Assembly: GCA_030063045.1 (NCBI GenBank)
Contig: JAQSEB010000003.1
Location: 62,001 to 126,000 of the forward strand
DNA length: 64,000 nucleotides
Direction: 5' to 3'
Source: Pratylenchus scribneri
Lineage: Eukaryota; Nematoda; Chromadorea; Rhabditida; Pratylenchidae
Shown here: positions 9,328 to 18,888 of the stretch, in pieces
Position numbering within the stretch: position 1 is the first letter of the stretch
How the letters are laid out: each line of letters opens with the position of its first letter
Notes under the pieces: generated by a model
What the model was told of the DNA's origin: nothing
The model's database searches: none
The model's input: only the letters and a program-made list of their open reading frames with translations
Made by a program: the position numbers and the translations under genes

Positions 9328-12300
9328 ATGAAAGTTAAACGGCTGAAGCGAGCAGCCCGTTCCTTGACATTTTTTCGTTACAATTTTGGCTACATCCCGC
9401 CGTATTCCATTTTGTTGGATGGCACATTTTGTCAGGCAGCATTGCAGAATAAAATCAATTTACGCGAACAAATGCCTAAATATTTGGCCGATACCCAGGT
9501 GGAGATGTTCGTCACGGAATGTGTTTTGAATGAATTGGGTAAATCATTTTTTATTAATTTAAAATTTTTGACTTTAAAAATTAAAAATATACTAAGAAGC
9601 ATCGAAAATAGGTAGGTTAAGCTTAAGTTGGAAATTTAATCAGAAAAGAAATGAAAAATTGAACAATAAATCTTCCTAATCCTTTTGGCCCGCATTGGCG
9701 CGTTTTGAAAATCGGACATTTATGCGCGTTTTGAAAATTTGGACATTTATAATTTAAATTTACGCCAAAGTTGAAATGTCATTAAAATTTATTAAAAAAT
9801 GAATAAATGAAATGTAAAAAAAATAAATAAATGCAAAAGCAAACCGATCAACAAACAAAGGCTGTAACCAAATCAATTGTCAATTCCGAAACCAAAACTA
9901 AATAATCATTTACTCATTTATAAAATTAAAATTATGCAAAGTTTCCAGAGAATAAAATCAATTATCAATCAATTCAATAATCAGCAAAAAACAACGGAAA
10001 GCATATGACGGCAAAGAAGCAACGTGGCGAGAAGAAGGCCAAGAGCTCATTGAACAAGGTGGTCACCCGCGAGTACACCATTCACATGCACAAGCTCATT
10101 CATGGAATGTACGGTTTACCTTTTAATTATTCTAATTTTACTGAATCTTTATTGAAAATATTAAAAATGACAGATATATTAAGCATGACGAAAGGATTTT
10201 AAAGGTTTTTAACGGTTCAATGGTTTGTCCTAGATAACAAACCCTATAAAAAATCGATATCGGTAGATCTCTTCACGACGCATCCTTTGATTATTTTGAT
10301 TTGGGTTGGGTTAGACCAGTTATAAACTTAGTTTTGAATCAAAATTGATTTAAACCGTTTAATACCCTTTAACTATTGACCAAACAATCACTAATTATAA
10401 ATATAAACCGTTCCATTCAATACATCTTCGTCTTGACGAGATTTTTCCGATTGGGTTTCGGGTTGGGGGCCTCGGGTCTAGAATAAACCATTGAAGATTG
10501 AACCGCTCTGATCTTTTCTCCATTTTCAATATTTTTATCGTCAAATTAAATAAAATCCATTTTTATTCAGTGGTTTCAAATACCGAGCACCGCGGGCCAT
10601 CAAAGAGGTCAAGAAATTTGCCGAGAAGCAAATGGGCACTCCTGACGTTCGCATCGACACACGTTTGAACAAATTCCTCTATCCTCTGGTCCCAAGGCGT
10701 TCGTATCCATATTTAAATTGTTTTGAATTAATTTATAATTTCCAGCAATGTTCCATACCGAGTCCGTGTCCGCTTGTCGCGTCGACGCAATGATGACGAG
10801 GACTCACCGCACAAACTCTACACCTTGGTATTCTATTAAACATTTATAAGGATTTTCTTAATAAGTTTCGCCATGTGTTCTAATTATTCGCTAGGATAGT
10901 AAGATATTAATTGAGTCGAAACTCGAAACAAAGCGAAAATAATCAATATCAGCTACTATTAATATATTCTAAAAAAATCGAAAATACCACGTAACAGTCT
11001 CAATCTCTACACATTTTTTAATAATAGAATAGACAGCTTAATATAAATAAGTAGCTAGTTTCAAGTTTGCTTAATGTATTTATTGAATCAAAATTCCAAA
11101 TTAGATTTTTAAAAAATGTTATCACACATATAAGTAATTTCCCAATCAATCTTTGACTTGATTTTTTAATCTAATCCAATATGAGTAATAATTTTGATAA
11201 ATCCATCCCCTTCCCTTCCCATTATTGATGATATTTTAAACAATTAACAATTACAACATTTTTTAGGTCACCCACGTGCCAGTGACTTCTTTCAAGCGGC
11301 TGACCACTGTGAATGTTGAAAGCGAAGATTGAAGTAAAATGCTATCGCAATTTGAATTAGAAGATTAAAAGGCAATCCAACAAATTTTGTTATTTATTAT
11401 TTTTTTATGATAAATTATTCAAGATCTTACAAGTTCCAACTTTATTCATAAATCATAGCCCTCTAGAGTTACGAAATTTTAAAATTTAAATTTTTTTACC
11501 AGAAATTATCCAGTAGAAAAATTAAATGCATGCAGCAATTAAAAACATATCAATTTTTACTTTTTTTTTTATAATTTTTATGACATTTCGTCTTTTGGCG
11601 TAAATTTAAATTTATAAATGTACTTTTTTCAAAACGCGCATAAATGTCCGATTTTCAAAACGCTACTCAACCCTTTTGGCCTTCTTCATTTTATAATCAA
11701 AATTCCTTGATTTTATAATTAAATTGGTATTTGATTCAAATCCCTCAGATCAGTACAGGAACCAAATCCTTAATTTTTAACTATCTGCTGGTCCAAATTT
11801 CTAAAGTACCAACAAAACCATTATAATAATTAATTATTCGGTGCTTTTTAATTATCCAGGTTCCAGGACCAGATTATTTTTGAGTGAAGGGTTCTCCTTA
11901 CAGGTGGGGTTAGAGTTAGGGATTTGTGGCTTAAAGACCCTAACGCCTAATCTTATACCGAATGACCCAGGAGGGGTTAACTGTACTTTCTCTAGTTAAC
12001 CCCCATAAAATCTGATCCTGGAATTATTTATATTCCATCAATTTTCATGCAGAACAACTTGGCAAACCACTGCATGGCGCCCATGTAATTGCCCAACAAT
12101 TTCGCATCACAAAATGTCCGCATAGGCCGATGAGAACTGCGGCGGAATGCATTGCACATTTGGCAAGGAGGTCAAAAAGGCCAGGGATGGATGGAGTGCA
12201 TGGCGAAAATGCGAGCAAAGCGGCGACTAAATATTTCGTAGCCACACAGGTTCAAAATTTAAGGAAATATTTTACAAAAATTAATTTTAAGGATGATTCA

Positions 12301-12803
12301 TTGCTTGAAAAATTGCGAGAACTTGGCGGTATCCCGCTGATGTCCATTCGCTTTAATACAATCATTTTGGAGAAGGTAATTGAAAACAAAAATAATTTAA
12401 AAAATAAAATTTTTAGCCTTCGGATCAAAGTCAGTTGGAAGTGGAAAGAAAAAATCCAACGGAATTGGAAAAAGCCCGTCAGATGAAGAAAATGGAATTG
12501 GGCGAAAATGAGGGAATAAAGCATCGGAAAAGGAAGGCAAAAGGCCCGAATCCATTGTCATGTAAAAAGAAGAAAAAATCATCGGTGGGCAATTCCAACG
12601 GTGGAGTGGCCGGCGCATTTGGCAATCAGCGGAAAAAGGTCAACAATCCGCTGAACAAATCAATGGGAGGAAAACATATGGAATCATCTGAAGCAAATTC
12701 ATCAGTTGAAAATGGCAAAAAGAAGAAAAGAAAGAGGAGAAAAATGACCAAAGAAACACAAAATAGCAGCACAATAGGAGAAGTAGAAAATCCTAATGAA
12801 TAA
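9328..12803 (+). CDS. utp23: UTP23 small-subunit processome protein (PIN domain)
   Basis: Four exons (9328-9538, 12053-12249, 12292-12375, 12417-12803) sum to 292 aa. The product is a nucleolar PIN-domain factor of the SSU processome, needed for early 18S rRNA processing (snR30-linked in yeast). The N-terminus reads [15 protein letters not shown] and LLDGTFCQA, as in UTP23/FCF1 proteins. The middle holds ITKCPH, an AAEC cysteine and YFVATQ. The C-terminus carries the family signature [13 protein letters not shown] followed by a Lys-rich tail. Intron 2 is only 42 bp. Intron 1 is 2.5 kb because it contains the complete rpl-31 gene inside a repeat-bounded block. The gene sits 70 bp after the NDUFAF8-like gene and 135 bp before ITFG2, suggesting an operon. 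Confidence 0.92.
9681..9690 (+). repeat. Left 10-bp direct repeat (target duplication) CCTTTTGGCC
   Basis: The exact decamer CCTTTTGGCC lies immediately outside the left inverted repeat and recurs at 11672-11681 immediately outside the right one. A 9-10 bp target duplication is typical of Mutator-like elements. Confidence 0.65.
10005..11332 (+). CDS. rpl-31: Ribosomal protein eL31, nested in UTP23 intron 1
   Basis: Four exons (10005-10108, 10571-10702, 10746-10827, 11267-11332) sum to 127 aa; human eL31 has 125. Diagnostic strings are [56 protein letters not shown] and [20 protein letters not shown]. It is a protein of the cytosolic 60S subunit near the peptide exit tunnel. No stop, frameshift or lost splice site is visible, so it looks functional. 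A CAG acceptor 20 bp before the ATG could be a trans-splice site. The gene lies on the same strand as UTP23, wholly inside its first intron, and between inverted repeats. Its own first intron carries a foldback family A copy. Confidence 0.95.
10203..10560. mobile_element. Foldback family A copy in rpl-31 intron 1
   Basis: This is the palindromic family A: TTTTTAACGGTTCAATGG and GTCCTAGA in the left arm, GACGCATCCTTTGA, a TTTGAATCAAAATTG centre, then ACATCTTCGTCTTGACGAGA and GTCTAGAATAAACCATTG in the right arm. It makes up most of this intron and therefore sits inside the rpl-31-carrying block. Confidence 0.65.
11672..11681 (+). repeat. Right 10-bp direct repeat CCTTTTGGCC
   Basis: This is the exact copy of the decamer at 9681-9690, directly outside the right inverted repeat of the rpl-31-bearing block. 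Confidence 0.65.
11858..12035. mobile_element. Palindromic family C copy (UTP23 intron 1)
   Basis: The arm TAATTATCCAGGTTCCAGGA at the left pairs imperfectly with CTGATCCTGGAATTATTTA at the right. Between them lie GAAGGGTTCTCCTTACAGG and GACCCAGGAGGGGTTAAC. A related palindrome occurs at 24325-24530 (GGGTTCCCCTTATGG ... GACCAATAGGGGCTAC). It is non-coding. Confidence 0.45.
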
Positions 12804-12938: not shown

Positions 12939-15900
12939 ATGGTCCGTCAAGTTGTGCCCATGACATTTTTTGCCACATTTCTGAACGCCCCATGCACTTC
13001 GCTTAAATTGGCAAAAGGGCATGAATCAACCACCATATATTTGGTGGTTGGAAAATCGAATGGAGAGGTTTTTGAAAAAATTTGGTTCTATTTTCAAAAT
13101 CAGAATTATTTCCGGAATGAAAATCAGAACAATTCTTTCCGGAATGAAAATCAGAATAATTCTTTCCGGAATGAAAATCAGAATAATTCTTTCCGGAATG
13201 AAAATCAGAATTCTTTCCGGAATGAAAATCAGAATTCTTTCCGGAATAAAAATCAGAATTCTTTCCGGAATGAAAATCAGAATTATTTCCGGAATGAAAA
13301 TCAGAACAATTCTTTCCGGAATGAAAATCAGAATTCTTTCCGGAATAAAAATCAGAACAATTCATTCCGGAATGAAAATCAGAACAATTCTTTCCGGAAT
13401 GAAAATCAGAACAATTCTTTCCGGAACGAAAATCAGAATTCTTTCCGGAATAAAAATCAGAATTCTTTCCGGAATGAAAATCAGAATTCTTTCCGGAATA
13501 AAAATCAGAATTCTTTCCGGAATGAAAATCAGAATTCTTTCCGGAATGAAAATCAGAATTCTTTCCGGAACGAAAATCAGAATTCTTTCCGGAATAAAAA
13601 TCAGAATTCTTTCCGGAATGAAAATCAGAATTCTTTCCGGAATGAAAATCAGAATTCTTTCCGGAACGAAAATCAGAATTATTTCCGGAATGAAAATCAG
13701 AACAATTCTTTCCGGAATGAAAATCAGAATTCTTTCCGGAATGAAAATCAGAACAATTCTTTCCGGAATGAAAATCAGAATAATTCTTTCCGGAATGAAA
13801 ATCAGAATTCTTTCTGGAATGAAAATCAGAATTCTTTCCGGAATGAAAATCAGAATTCTTTCCGGAACGAAAATCAGAATTATTTCCGGAATGAAAATCA
13901 GAACAATTCTTTCCGGAATGAAAATCAGAATAATTCTTTCCGGAATGAAAATCAGAATTCTTTCCGGAATGAAAATCAGAATTCTTTCCGGAATAAAAAT
14001 CAGAATTCTTTCCGGAATGAAAATCAGAATTCTTTCCGGAACGAAAATCAGAATTATTTCCGGAATGAAAATCAGAACAATTCTTTCCGGAATGAAAATC
14101 AGAATTCTTTCCGGAATGAAAATCAGAACAATTCTTTCCGGAATGAAAATCAGAATAATTCTTTCCGGAATGAAAATCAGAATTCTTTCCGGAATGAAAA
14201 TCAGAATTCTTTCCGGAATAAAAATCAGAATTCTTTCCGGAACGAAAATCAGAATTATTTCCGGAATGAAAATCAGAACAATTCTTTCCGGAATGAAAAT
14301 CAGAATTCTTTCCGGAATGAAAATCAGAACAATTCTTTCCGGAATGAAAATCAGAATAATTCTTTCCGGAATGAAAATCAGAATTCTTTCCGGAATGAAA
14401 ATCAGAATTCTTTCCGGAATAAAAATCAGAATTCTTTCCGGAATAAAAATCAGAATTCTTTCCGGAATGAAAATCAGAACAATTCTTTCCGGAATGAAAA
14501 TCAGAATTCTTTCCGGAATAAAAATCAGAACAATTCTTTCCGGAATGAAAATCAGAATAATTCTTTCCGGAATGAAAATCAGAATAATTCTTTCCGGAAT
14601 GAAAATCAGAATAATTCTTTCCGGAATGAAAATCAGAATAATTCTTTCCGGAATGAAAATCAGAATTCTTTCCGGAATGAAAATCAGAATTCTTTCCGGA
14701 ATAAAAATCAGAATTCTTTCCGGAATGAAAATCAGAATTATTTCCGGAATGAAAATCAGAACAATTCTTTCCGGAATGAAAATCAGAATTCTTTCCGGAA
14801 TAAAAATCAGAACAATTCATTCCGGAATGAAAATCAGAACAATTCTTTCCGGAATGAAAATCAGAACAATTCTTTCCGGAACGAAAATCAGAATTCTTTC
14901 CGGAATAAAAATCAGAATTCTTTCCGGAATGAAAATCAGAATTCTTTCCGGAATGAAAATCAGAATTCTTTCCGGAACGAAAATCAGAACAATTCTTTCC
15001 GGAATGAAAATCAGAACAATTCTTTCCGGAATGAAAATCAGAACAATTCTTTCCGGAATGAAAATCAGAATAATTCTTTCCGGAATGAAAATCAGAATTC
15101 TTTCCGGAATGAAAATCAGAATTCTTTCCGGAATAAAAATCAGAATTCTTTCCGGAATAAAAATCAGAATTCTTTCCGGAATGAAAATCAGAACAATTCT
15201 TTCCGGAATGAAAATCAGAATTCTTTCCGGAATAAAAATCAGAACAATTCTTTCCGGAATGAAAATCAGAATAATTCTTTCCGGAATGAAAATCAGAATT
15301 CTTTCCGGAACGAAAATCAGAATTCTTTCCGGAATGAAAATCAGAATTCTTTCCGGAATGAAAATCAGAATTCTTTCCGGAACGAAAATCAGAATTCTTT
15401 CCGGAATAAAAATCAGAATTCTTTCCGGAAAGAAAATCAGAATTATTTCCGGAATGAAAATCAGAATTATTTCCGGAATGAAAATCAGAATTCTTTCCGG
15501 AATGAAAATCAGAATTCTTTCCGGAATAAAAATCAGAACAATTCTTTCCGGAATGAAAATCAGAATTCTTTCCGGAATAAAAATCAGAACAATTCTTTCC
15601 GGAATGAAAATCAGAATAATTCTTTCCGGAATGAAAATCAGAATTCTTTCCGGAACGAAAATCAGAATTCTTTCCGGAATGAAAATCAGAATTCTTTCCG
15701 GAATGAAAATCAGAATTCTTTCCGGAATGAAAATCAGAATTCTTTCCGGAACGAAAATCAGAATTCTTTCCGGAATAAAAATCAGAATTATTTCCGGAAT
15801 GAAAATCAGAACAATTCTTTCCGGAATGAAAATCAGAATTCTTTCCGGAATGAAAATCAGAATTATTTCCGGAATGAAAATCAGAACAATTCTTTCCGGA

Positions 15901-18888
15901 ATGAAAATCAGAATTCTTTCCGGAATAAAAATCAGAACAATTCATTCCGGAATGAAAATCAGAACAATTCTTTCCGGAATGAAAATCAGAACAATTCTTT
16001 CCGGAACGAAAATCAGAATTCTTTCCGGAATAAAAATCAGAATTCTTTCCGGAATGAAAATCAGAATTCTTTCCGGAATGAAAATCAGAATTCTTTCCGG
16101 AACGAAAATCAGAATTATTTCCGGAATGAAAATCAGAACAATTCTTTCCGGAATGAAAATCAGAATAATTCTTTCCGGAATGAAAATCAGAATTCTTTCC
16201 GGAATGAAAATCAGAATTCTTTCCGGAATAAAAATCAGAATTCTTTCCGGAATGAAAATCAGAATTCTTTCCGGAACGAAAATCAGAATTATTTCCGGAA
16301 TGAAAATCAGAACAATTCTTTCCGGAATGAAAATCAGAATTCTTTCCGGAATGAAAATCAGAACAATTCTTTCCGGAATGAAAATCAGAATAATTCTTTC
16401 CGGAATGAAAATCAGAATTCTTTCCGGAATGAAAATCAGAATTCTTTCCGGAATAAAAATCAGAATTCTTTCCGGAATAAAAATCAGAATTCTTTCCGGA
16501 ATGAAAATCAGAACAATTCTTTCCGGAATGAAAATCAGAATTCTTTCCGGAATAAAAATCAGAACAATTCTTTCCGGAATGAAAATCAGAATAATTCTTT
16601 CCGGAATGAAAATCAGAATTCTTTCCGGAACGAAAATCAGAATTCTTTCCGGAATGAAAATCAGAATTCTTTCCGGAATGAAAATCAGAATTCTTTCCGG
16701 AACGAAAATCAGAATTCTTTCCGGAATAAAAATCAGAATTCTTTCCGGAAAGAAAATCAGAATTATTTCCGGAATGAAAATCAGAATTATTTCCGGAATG
16801 AAAATCAGAATTCTTTCCGGAATGAAAATCAGAATTCTTTCCGGAATAAAAATCAGAACAATTCTTTCCGGAATGAAAATCAGAATTCTTTCCGGAATAA
16901 AAATCAGAACAATTCTTTCCGGAATGAAAATCAGAATAATTCTTTCCGGAATGAAAATCAGAATTCTTTCCGGAACGAAAATCAGAATTCTTTCCGGAAT
17001 GAAAATCAGAATTCTTTCCGGAATGAAAATCAGAATTCTTTCCGGAATGAAAATCAGAATTCTTTCCGGAACGAAAATCAGAATTCTTTCCGGAATAAAA
17101 ATCAGAATTATTTCCGGAATGAAAATCAGAACAATTATTTCCGGAATGAAAATCAGAACAATTCTTTCCGGAATGAAAATCAGAATAATTCTTTCCGGAA
17201 TGAAAAACAGAATTCTTTCCGGAACGAAAATCAGAATTCTTTCCGGAATAAAAATCAGAATTCTTTCCGGAATGAAAATCAGAATTCTTTCCGGAATGAA
17301 AATCAGAATTCTTTCCGGAATGAAAATCAGAATTCTTTCCGGAACGAAAATCAGAATTATTTCCGGAATGAAAATCAGAACAATTCTTTCCGGAATGAAA
17401 ATCAGAACAATTCTTTCCTTAATGAAAATCAGAACTCAGTAAAGGAAGAGCTGCTTAAAAAAATTTATATTTTTTAAGACAATTTTCTTCCCTACTGACC
17501 GATCGGAATGCATAACAAAATTCGAAAATGAATCAAAAGTGGCTATCAGCGCAATTGCCGATGGGGATATGAGAAATTTGGGCAAGTAAGAAGCAAAATT
17601 GGAAAATTTTATTCGAACATTTTTTCGGTCTGAATTGATCACCATCACTGCACATGGAAATTTAACAGTTTTCATTCATTTTTTATACCGTTCATTCTTC
17701 AATTTCAGTCCCTTTCATTCCCATCCGGAGCCCCAACCGGGCCAGTTCGTCTTTTTAGTCAACAAATTTATGCGAATATTTGCTCCGCTGAAGTGATGTA
17801 AATATCAAATTATTGAAGTAAACTGTCAAAAAAATTTCCTAGTGATATTGATGGCGATGGTCTGGTCGAATTGCTCGTTCTAATGACCGATCGCGTGGTT
17901 CGTTCCTATCGTTTTGTGGAGGAATTGGCCCGGTTGGTGCCATTGAACAAATGGGAAATGCCATCCCAAATTTCTGGATGGTCCATGGGAATTGGCAGGA
18001 AAATTTTTTACAAAAATTCTATTCCAATTTAAAAAAATGCAGCACAAATTTCGCACTTCTCTCCCAGTCGGAAGAGCAGCACTACATTTGGCTGGACTTT
18101 GGTCCAAGCAAAGATGTTCGGGTTTACCAAACGCCCAGTCATCCCGCTCCAAGTCCATGCCAACAAATTCTATGCCCGGCTGAAATTCCTCCCACCATAA
18201 GCTCGCCCCAACTTCCAATCACTCAATTGGTCATTGCCAAACGACTTTCTTCAGTCCATTTGCTTCATTGCATGGTTCGGCGACTGCTTTTGGTCGATGA
18301 AGGTGAAAACACTTATTTATCAACATAAATGAGAGAATTCGTTTATTTCTCGAAAATTTAATTCCATTTTTTAAAATTCATAAATTTATTTGTAATTTAA
18401 TTCCACAAACAAATTTTTAAAAATTTAATTCACAAATTTTTGAAAACTTAAAAATTTATCTCTTTAAATTTTTCAAAAAATTAATTCCTCAAATTTTTTA
18501 AAATTTTTATTTAAGTTCCCACTCAACAAGTTGAATTGGCCAACCCCGGTGGGGCAGATGTGGCCTGTTGCAGTGCAGCAATTTTCCCAAATGGGCTGAG
18601 AACGCTGACCACCTGCGATCCTTGGGGCCAGCTAAATGTTTATGGATGGAGGGATGAAGATGAGGTGAGAAATTTCAATTAATTTTTAAATTTGCATTTT
18701 TTTAGTTGGAAAAAATCAGCAATCCAATAGCGAGCTGTCGAGTCATGCGCGACATCGACTTCATTTGTACATCTCCCGGCCCCCGCCCGAATGATGACAG
18801 AATTTTTGTCGGCATTGTAAACATTTTTAGCCGAATTGCAATTTTTTCAATTGATTTATCACATTTTCTAAACAATAAATTTGAATAA
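12939..18888 (+). CDS. itfg2: ITFG2-like KICSTOR subunit (beta-propeller)
   Basis: Seven exons (12939-13067, 17479-17585, 17709-17792, 17843-17980, 18043-18302, 18516-18664, 18706-18888) sum to 349 aa. NDIDGDGLVELLVLMTDRVVR followed by LVPLNKWEMP matches the FG-GAP/calcium-loop repeat of human ITFG2 ([21 protein letters not shown]... LVSLKKWML, from memory). Later blades read CTNFALLSQSEEQHYIWL and CDPWGQLNVYGW. Human ITFG2 (447 aa) is part of KICSTOR, which anchors GATOR1 at lysosomes for amino-acid control of mTORC1. The nematode protein would be about 100 residues shorter. Intron 1 is 4.4 kb of satellite. The exon-1 frame stays open through all of it to a stop at 17475-17477, one nucleotide before exon 2. 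Intron 4 (17981-18042) is 62 bp. The exon 1/2 join is the least certain. Confidence 0.8.
13100..17435 (+). repeat. 21/24-bp satellite array filling ITFG2 intron 1
   Basis: About 4.3 kb consists of tandem 21-bp units (TTCCGGAATGAAAATCAGAAT with minor variants) and 24-bp units with an extra AAC or AAT. Variant bases include ATAAAA, ACGAAA, AGAAAA and TTCATTCC. Both unit lengths are multiples of three, so two forward frames run open through the array, as does one reverse frame for about 3 kb. A higher-order duplication is visible: roughly 15020-15815 reads identical to 16340-17135, offset 1,320 bp. Other blocks, for example around 13321-13440 and 15901-16020, also recur. It is non-coding if the intron is spliced. 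Confidence 0.95.

Follow-up and report, generated by a model that had tools for sequence, protein, structure and literature searches.

A probable Mutator-like element carrying a complete eL31 gene at about 35 loci in the genome of Pratylenchus scribneri

In the window, as we call the whole 64,000-nucleotide stretch of Pratylenchus scribneri DNA analyzed here, a gene for ribosomal protein eL31 lies between inverted repeats inside an intron of UTP23. This arrangement raises the question of whether a transposon has taken up a complete essential gene, introns included, and multiplied it. The explanation we favor, with a probability of about 80%, is a non-autonomous Mutator-like element (Pack-MULE) that carries a complete eL31 gene and occurs with three related families of terminal repeats, termed A, B1, and B2, at ~35 loci.

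The element in the UTP23 intron

The host gene occupies positions 9328..12803 of the forward strand, and its three exons (9328-9538, 12053-12375, and 12417-12803) form an open frame of 306 amino acids. The joined exons matched Fcf1 (E = 1.6e-17) and the UTP23 sensor (E = 6.8e-6) in Pfam; exon 1 alone gave nothing significant. The placement of the element inside a UTP23 intron on the same strand, as given in the preliminary description, was thus borne out. Directly behind UTP23, 173 copies of a 24-bp unit form a 4.3-kb tandem array (window 13096-17434).

The element spans 9691-11672 (1982 bp) in UTP23 intron 1 and is bounded by inverted arms of the A type at 9691..9769 (forward) and 11594..11672 (reverse). 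The arms pair perfectly over 38 nt (9700-9737 with 11626-11663) and over a second block of 19 nt (9751-9769 with 11594-11612), which confirms the inverted repeats reported earlier around the eL31 gene, and a 26-bp sub-repeat is present in each of them. A chance origin is excluded, since a genome search with the arm, suggested at the outset, gave 40 scored matches, a lower bound, many of them in pairs ~2 kb apart around eL31. A transposase of its own is absent from the window element, whose 1982 bp are taken up by eL31.

CCTTTTGGCC stands at both borders of the element (9681-9690 and 11672-11681) and had been regarded as a 10-bp target duplication. Two probes placed UTP23 DNA at five places in the genome, and the element is missing from the four other copies. 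On contigs C169, C186, and C124 the UTP23 intron is too short for the element, and the exact site is not alignable there. The paralogue on contig C67 (L060) provides one empty site: its intron lacks the element, contains one TCTTTTGGCC, and shows ~90% identity on either side. This single TCTTTTGGCC indicates that the duplication measures 9 bp, namely CTTTTGGCC at 9682..9690 and 11673..11681, with a single copy at the empty site, and that the tenth base is the end of the element. An empty UTP23 intron with one target copy, proposed earlier as a check, thus exists in a paralogue of the same genome; it shows that one insertion event took place and excludes two independently inserted arms.

The eL31 gene of the window consists of four exons on the forward strand (10005..10108, 10571..10702, 10746..10827, and 11267..11332, the last including the stop codon) with GT/AG introns and an open frame of 127 codons that matches PF01198 with an E value of 3.1e-38. 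A leader splice acceptor, TTTCCAG, is predicted at 9943..9949, 56 nt upstream of the ATG. Compared with sister copies, exon 2 has gained 7 bp (a near tandem repeat), and a single G is missing at its end. A frameshift with loss of the splice donor was considered for this copy and rejected: the donor lies one base earlier, and the +7 and −1 changes together leave the frame open, replacing WSQGVR by YPLVPRRS. All 120 homologues that were listed, of 2399 found, have the motif W[SH]xG[VI], and the window copy is open yet probably impaired. Where the preliminary description had spoken of an intact, apparently functional cargo gene, the four-exon, intron-bearing structure with its open frame stands, but the words intact and apparently functional suit other copies better, given the replacement of a motif that is invariant in the listed homologues. 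The closest named homologue among the matches listed is from Meloidogyne enterolobii (90%). Small, differing indels in exon 2, often 4- to 7-bp tandem duplications, occur in 7 of 12 A copies, and none was seen in exons 1, 3, and 4.

eL31 loci in the genome and separate landings

A second eL31 locus had been suggested as a test, and the search yielded 40 eL31 loci (72 exon matches, grouped by hand), compared with two loci each for the controls eS26 and eL38. Five of them, C140:313k, C63, C86, C90, and C114:381k, have common flanks, which align over at least 1.7 kb upstream (gapped) and ~0.5 kb downstream, and encode one identical protein. A or B arms were not found at these five loci, where only short, weak inverted matches were present (best, 46 bp at 80%). 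When a 700-bp flank probe was compared with the genome, it matched the five loci at 85 to 100% identity, and other matches were partial or weak. On these features, the five arm-less loci look native. Duplication across the genome is uneven, with UTP23 and the native-looking eL31 at five places and eS26 and eL38 at two.

Among the other 35 loci, in a tally that leaves out the C140:293k sequence, both arms of one terminal-repeat family were found at 31 (11 A, 16 B1, and 4 B2). One arm was present at L049, and arms were not found at the C42 locus (L038). L050 (C31:510400-514500) has a B1 front, whose arm is identical to that of L015, joined to an A rear, and its eL31 gene is intact. The main point beyond the preliminary description is the presence of ~35 element-borne eL31 copies besides five apparently native ones. 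Most eL31 elements measure 1.9 to 2.6 kb; those on C91 and C2 reach ~8 kb owing to inserts, the B1 element on C2 (L065, C2:47801-55563) being enlarged by long tandem repeats. On C29 (1114688-1118140), a pair of B2 arms lies 3.5 kb apart with none of the 40 eL31 loci between them.

Each landing would create a duplication of 8 to 9 bp, and end repeats of this length, different in each case and partly read by eye, were found at 25 of 27 elements examined. Among the A elements with both arms, all 11 show them, 8 bp long in 8 cases (by eye). For the B elements the count was 14 of 16, mostly with 9 bp; L028 and L033 were settled by eye, L010 was cut off, and L022 gave no clear repeat. Shared ends and 8- to 9-bp duplications together support the proposal, already made for the window, that the eL31 gene, whole and with its introns, is the cargo of a Mutator-like element.

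Many copies decay once they have landed, and dead copies can still move. L036 and L037 are 99.4% identical and have a nonsense codon in common, and L011 and L013 are 97.9% identical with a common frameshift; in both pairs the flanks differ and the duplications are separate, flank matches being confined to 16 to 45 bp on one side only. The movement of these dead copies indicates that working cargo is not required in cis and that selection does not act simply per jump.

The captured gene, selection on it, and known systems

Homology to native eL31 begins at most ~25 bp before the T-rich CAG leader acceptor in A, B1, and B2 alike, and none of the 34 copies that have exon 1 has lost this acceptor, which lies 41 to 56 nt upstream of the ATG. 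We suppose that a Pack-MULE took up eL31 from just before this acceptor to beyond the stop codon, introns included. In nine pairs compared, the arm-gene spacers showed no match to the DNA upstream of native eL31; the highest z was 2.2, a value that 15 of 300 shuffles also attained. Native promoter DNA was thus seemingly not carried. If the copies are transcribed, transcription would begin in the arm or spacer, and the transcripts would be spliced at the retained acceptor.

A capture of this kind could have happened once or several times. It is possible, though on balance somewhat doubtful, that A, B1, and B2 each took up an older native eL31 gene independently at the same leader acceptor. In agreement with this scenario, the B1 spacer has no homology to those of the other families (best z of 2.1), and no homology was found between 3′ spacers in six cross-family pairs. 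Against it stand the common 5′ edge of homology in A, B1, and B2 and the relatedness of the A and B2 spacers (z of 2.7, 4.5, and 4.7 in three pairs). In an eL31 tree of 33 rows, from which L038, L049, and L050 were left out, native, A, B1, and B2 copies each form one group, and A plus native are split from B1 plus B2 with support of 95/87. This four-group tree fits a single capture followed by A and then B1/B2, but it is unrooted, which leaves room for several captures. The longer intron 1 of the native genes was set aside as a clue to the number of captures, because insertion into the native genes explains it equally well.

The encoded protein is strongly conserved. Mean dS between native copies and A, B2, and B1 copies was 0.46, 0.58, and 0.81, with dN of 0.005, 0.005, and 0.017, respectively; among the native copies dS was 0.13 and dN was 0. 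Most B1 copies are set apart from native eL31 by the residues T12, L98, and T112. Eleven shallow element pairs, hand-picked and, like all these selection counts, including broken copies, showed 12 nonsynonymous and 43 synonymous differences against a neutral expectation of ~3.3 nonsynonymous per synonymous difference (P = 3e-18). For 11 deeper pairs, three of which include a native copy, dN/dS ranged from 0 to 0.165. The prevalence of silent differences points to purifying selection on the cargo.

The same conservation might come about with an idle cargo if the protein had been kept through repeated capture from, or exchange with, selected native genes, but we consider this unlikely. Such a passenger would be consistent with the movement of dead copies and with the state of the 31 element copies read, only 12 of which were intact with canonical splice sites (8 of 13 B1, 3 of 12 A, and L050, but none of four B2 and not L038), leaving 19 that were not cleanly intact; the window copy and L025, which has a GC donor, can be counted as open only with reservations. 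The B1/A recombinant L050 also shows that exchange between copies of different element families occurs, which could blur the selection test. In contrast, native copies form a group of their own, separate from the three element families, and the dS values of 0.46 to 0.81 between native and element copies, compared with 0.13 among the natives, argue that the present native genes did not recently overwrite the cargo. The excess of silent differences within the shallow element pairs likewise speaks against a mere passenger.

A selected cargo is the reading we prefer to an idle one, and in its full form we hold it tentatively, at slightly less than even odds: a long-lived animal transposon lineage may have kept a complete, working eL31 gene under purifying selection, the eL31 genes of its three families having diverged, judged by silent sites, well before the five copies of the host. 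The cargo might feed ribosomes or shield the element. Lineages with a working eL31 would then be favored through an extra supply of eL31 to the host, or as bearers of a cargo so similar to an essential gene that it is hard to silence safely. In the shielding case the protection would arise because small RNAs directed against the cargo would also put the eL31 of the host itself at risk.

Most gene segments that transposons pick up degenerate. In the cited parts of PMC8277862, Pack-MULEs are known from plants, contain mostly gene fragments (median, ~305 bp) that rarely code for protein, and were reported in none of the 100 animal reference genomes surveyed. As described there, plant Pack-MULEs share with the eL31 elements MULE ends, duplications of the 8- to 11-bp type, cargo of host sequence, and multiplication by repeated transposition; unlike them, the eL31 elements carry a complete, intron-bearing essential gene that is conserved at the protein level. 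The plant KI-MULE is likewise a MULE with a protein-coding captured gene, but the gene is one for a ULP-like protease, described as likely nonfunctional, and not an essential ribosomal gene (PMC8277862, in the part cited). Drosophila Ssk-FB4 is, according to the same part, an animal Pack-MULE-like case with a host gene that is thought functional and duplications of 9 to 10 bp. It differs in having four copies in fly populations, an X-linked copy without the 3′ end, and signs of positive selection, compared with ~35 loci and purifying selection for eL31 (PMC8277862). Turmoil-1 of Caenorhabditis elegans, a DNA transposon of a nematode, likewise contains coding sequence from its host, but it is of the Harbinger type, holds fragments within its inverted repeats, and is stated in the cited part of PMC2572040 to be free of purifying selection. 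The Meloidogyne family Tm1, in the portion of PMC3169594 cited, resembles the eL31 elements as a nematode Mutator/Foldback family with 9-bp duplications, composite arms, and both MITE-like and transposase-bearing members; it differs in its Phantom transposase with FLYWCH and in its cargo, a histone hairpin motif and no protein gene. A fungal hAT element has likewise captured and multiplied a housekeeping gene, that for histone H3, but its hundreds of copies were inactivated by RIP (PMC6710886, in the part cited). Among the papers listed by searches of the open PMC literature, there was no earlier report of an eL31-carrying transposon. The novelty lies in a transposon that carries an essential gene in complete form at ~35 loci, with the protein sequence conserved; such cargo is very unusual among animal transposons. 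The eL31 elements allow one to test whether a transposon profits when its cargo gene benefits the host or is risky for the host to silence, and they show transposition as a possible route to a changed dosage of a ribosomal protein.

Elements that may supply the transposase

A search for transposase elsewhere in the genome, proposed at the outset, led to larger elements that share the A or B2 ends; they hold transposase sequences, the MULE-type matches being below the Pfam cut-off. Three elements of 5.93 kb have A ends, two on C130 and one on C97; the two on C130 represent one landing, as their flanks are identical. These A-ended elements matched the MULE transposase domain PF10551 with E values of 7.6e-4 and 4.2e-4 and an OTU protease with 1.7e-3 and 1.1e-3, all below the curated Pfam cut-offs. 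Three B2-ended elements of 6.1 kb (two on C251 and one on C57) contain a related transposase, 48 to 55% identical. For B1 ends no transposase partner was established. The non-autonomous eL31 elements would be mobilized in trans by transposase from such larger elements with the same ends. Small A-ended elements (L066 and L067) also exist; L067 (C34, 110-829) is a foldback-like element of 0.7 kb near a long frame that appears armadillo-repeat-like by eye.

The assignment of the A elements to hAT instead of MULE is very improbable: the 8-bp duplications in 8 of 11 A elements (by eye) would suit it, but the B elements mostly have 9 bp and the window element has 9 bp, and MULE but no hAT domain was found in the ORFs scanned (E of 0.1).

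FLYWCH, which marks the Phantom transposase of Tm1, was absent from the seven L051 ORFs scanned at the same threshold. The 8.4-kb B1 element on C91 (L064/L026, C91:1361658-1370040) contains eL31 together with a FLYWCH ORF, which scores above the Pfam cut-off, and a weak match to MULE on the opposite strand. We rejected this element as a unit combining transposase and eL31; its insert is probably nested, since at the corresponding place the long element on C2 carries tandem repeats. A homologue search with the A transposase gave three matches, none of them named. A 200-amino-acid protein from a metagenome contig (P0122) is 93% identical to a piece of the A transposase, which indicates that this transposase family is present in environmental DNA too.
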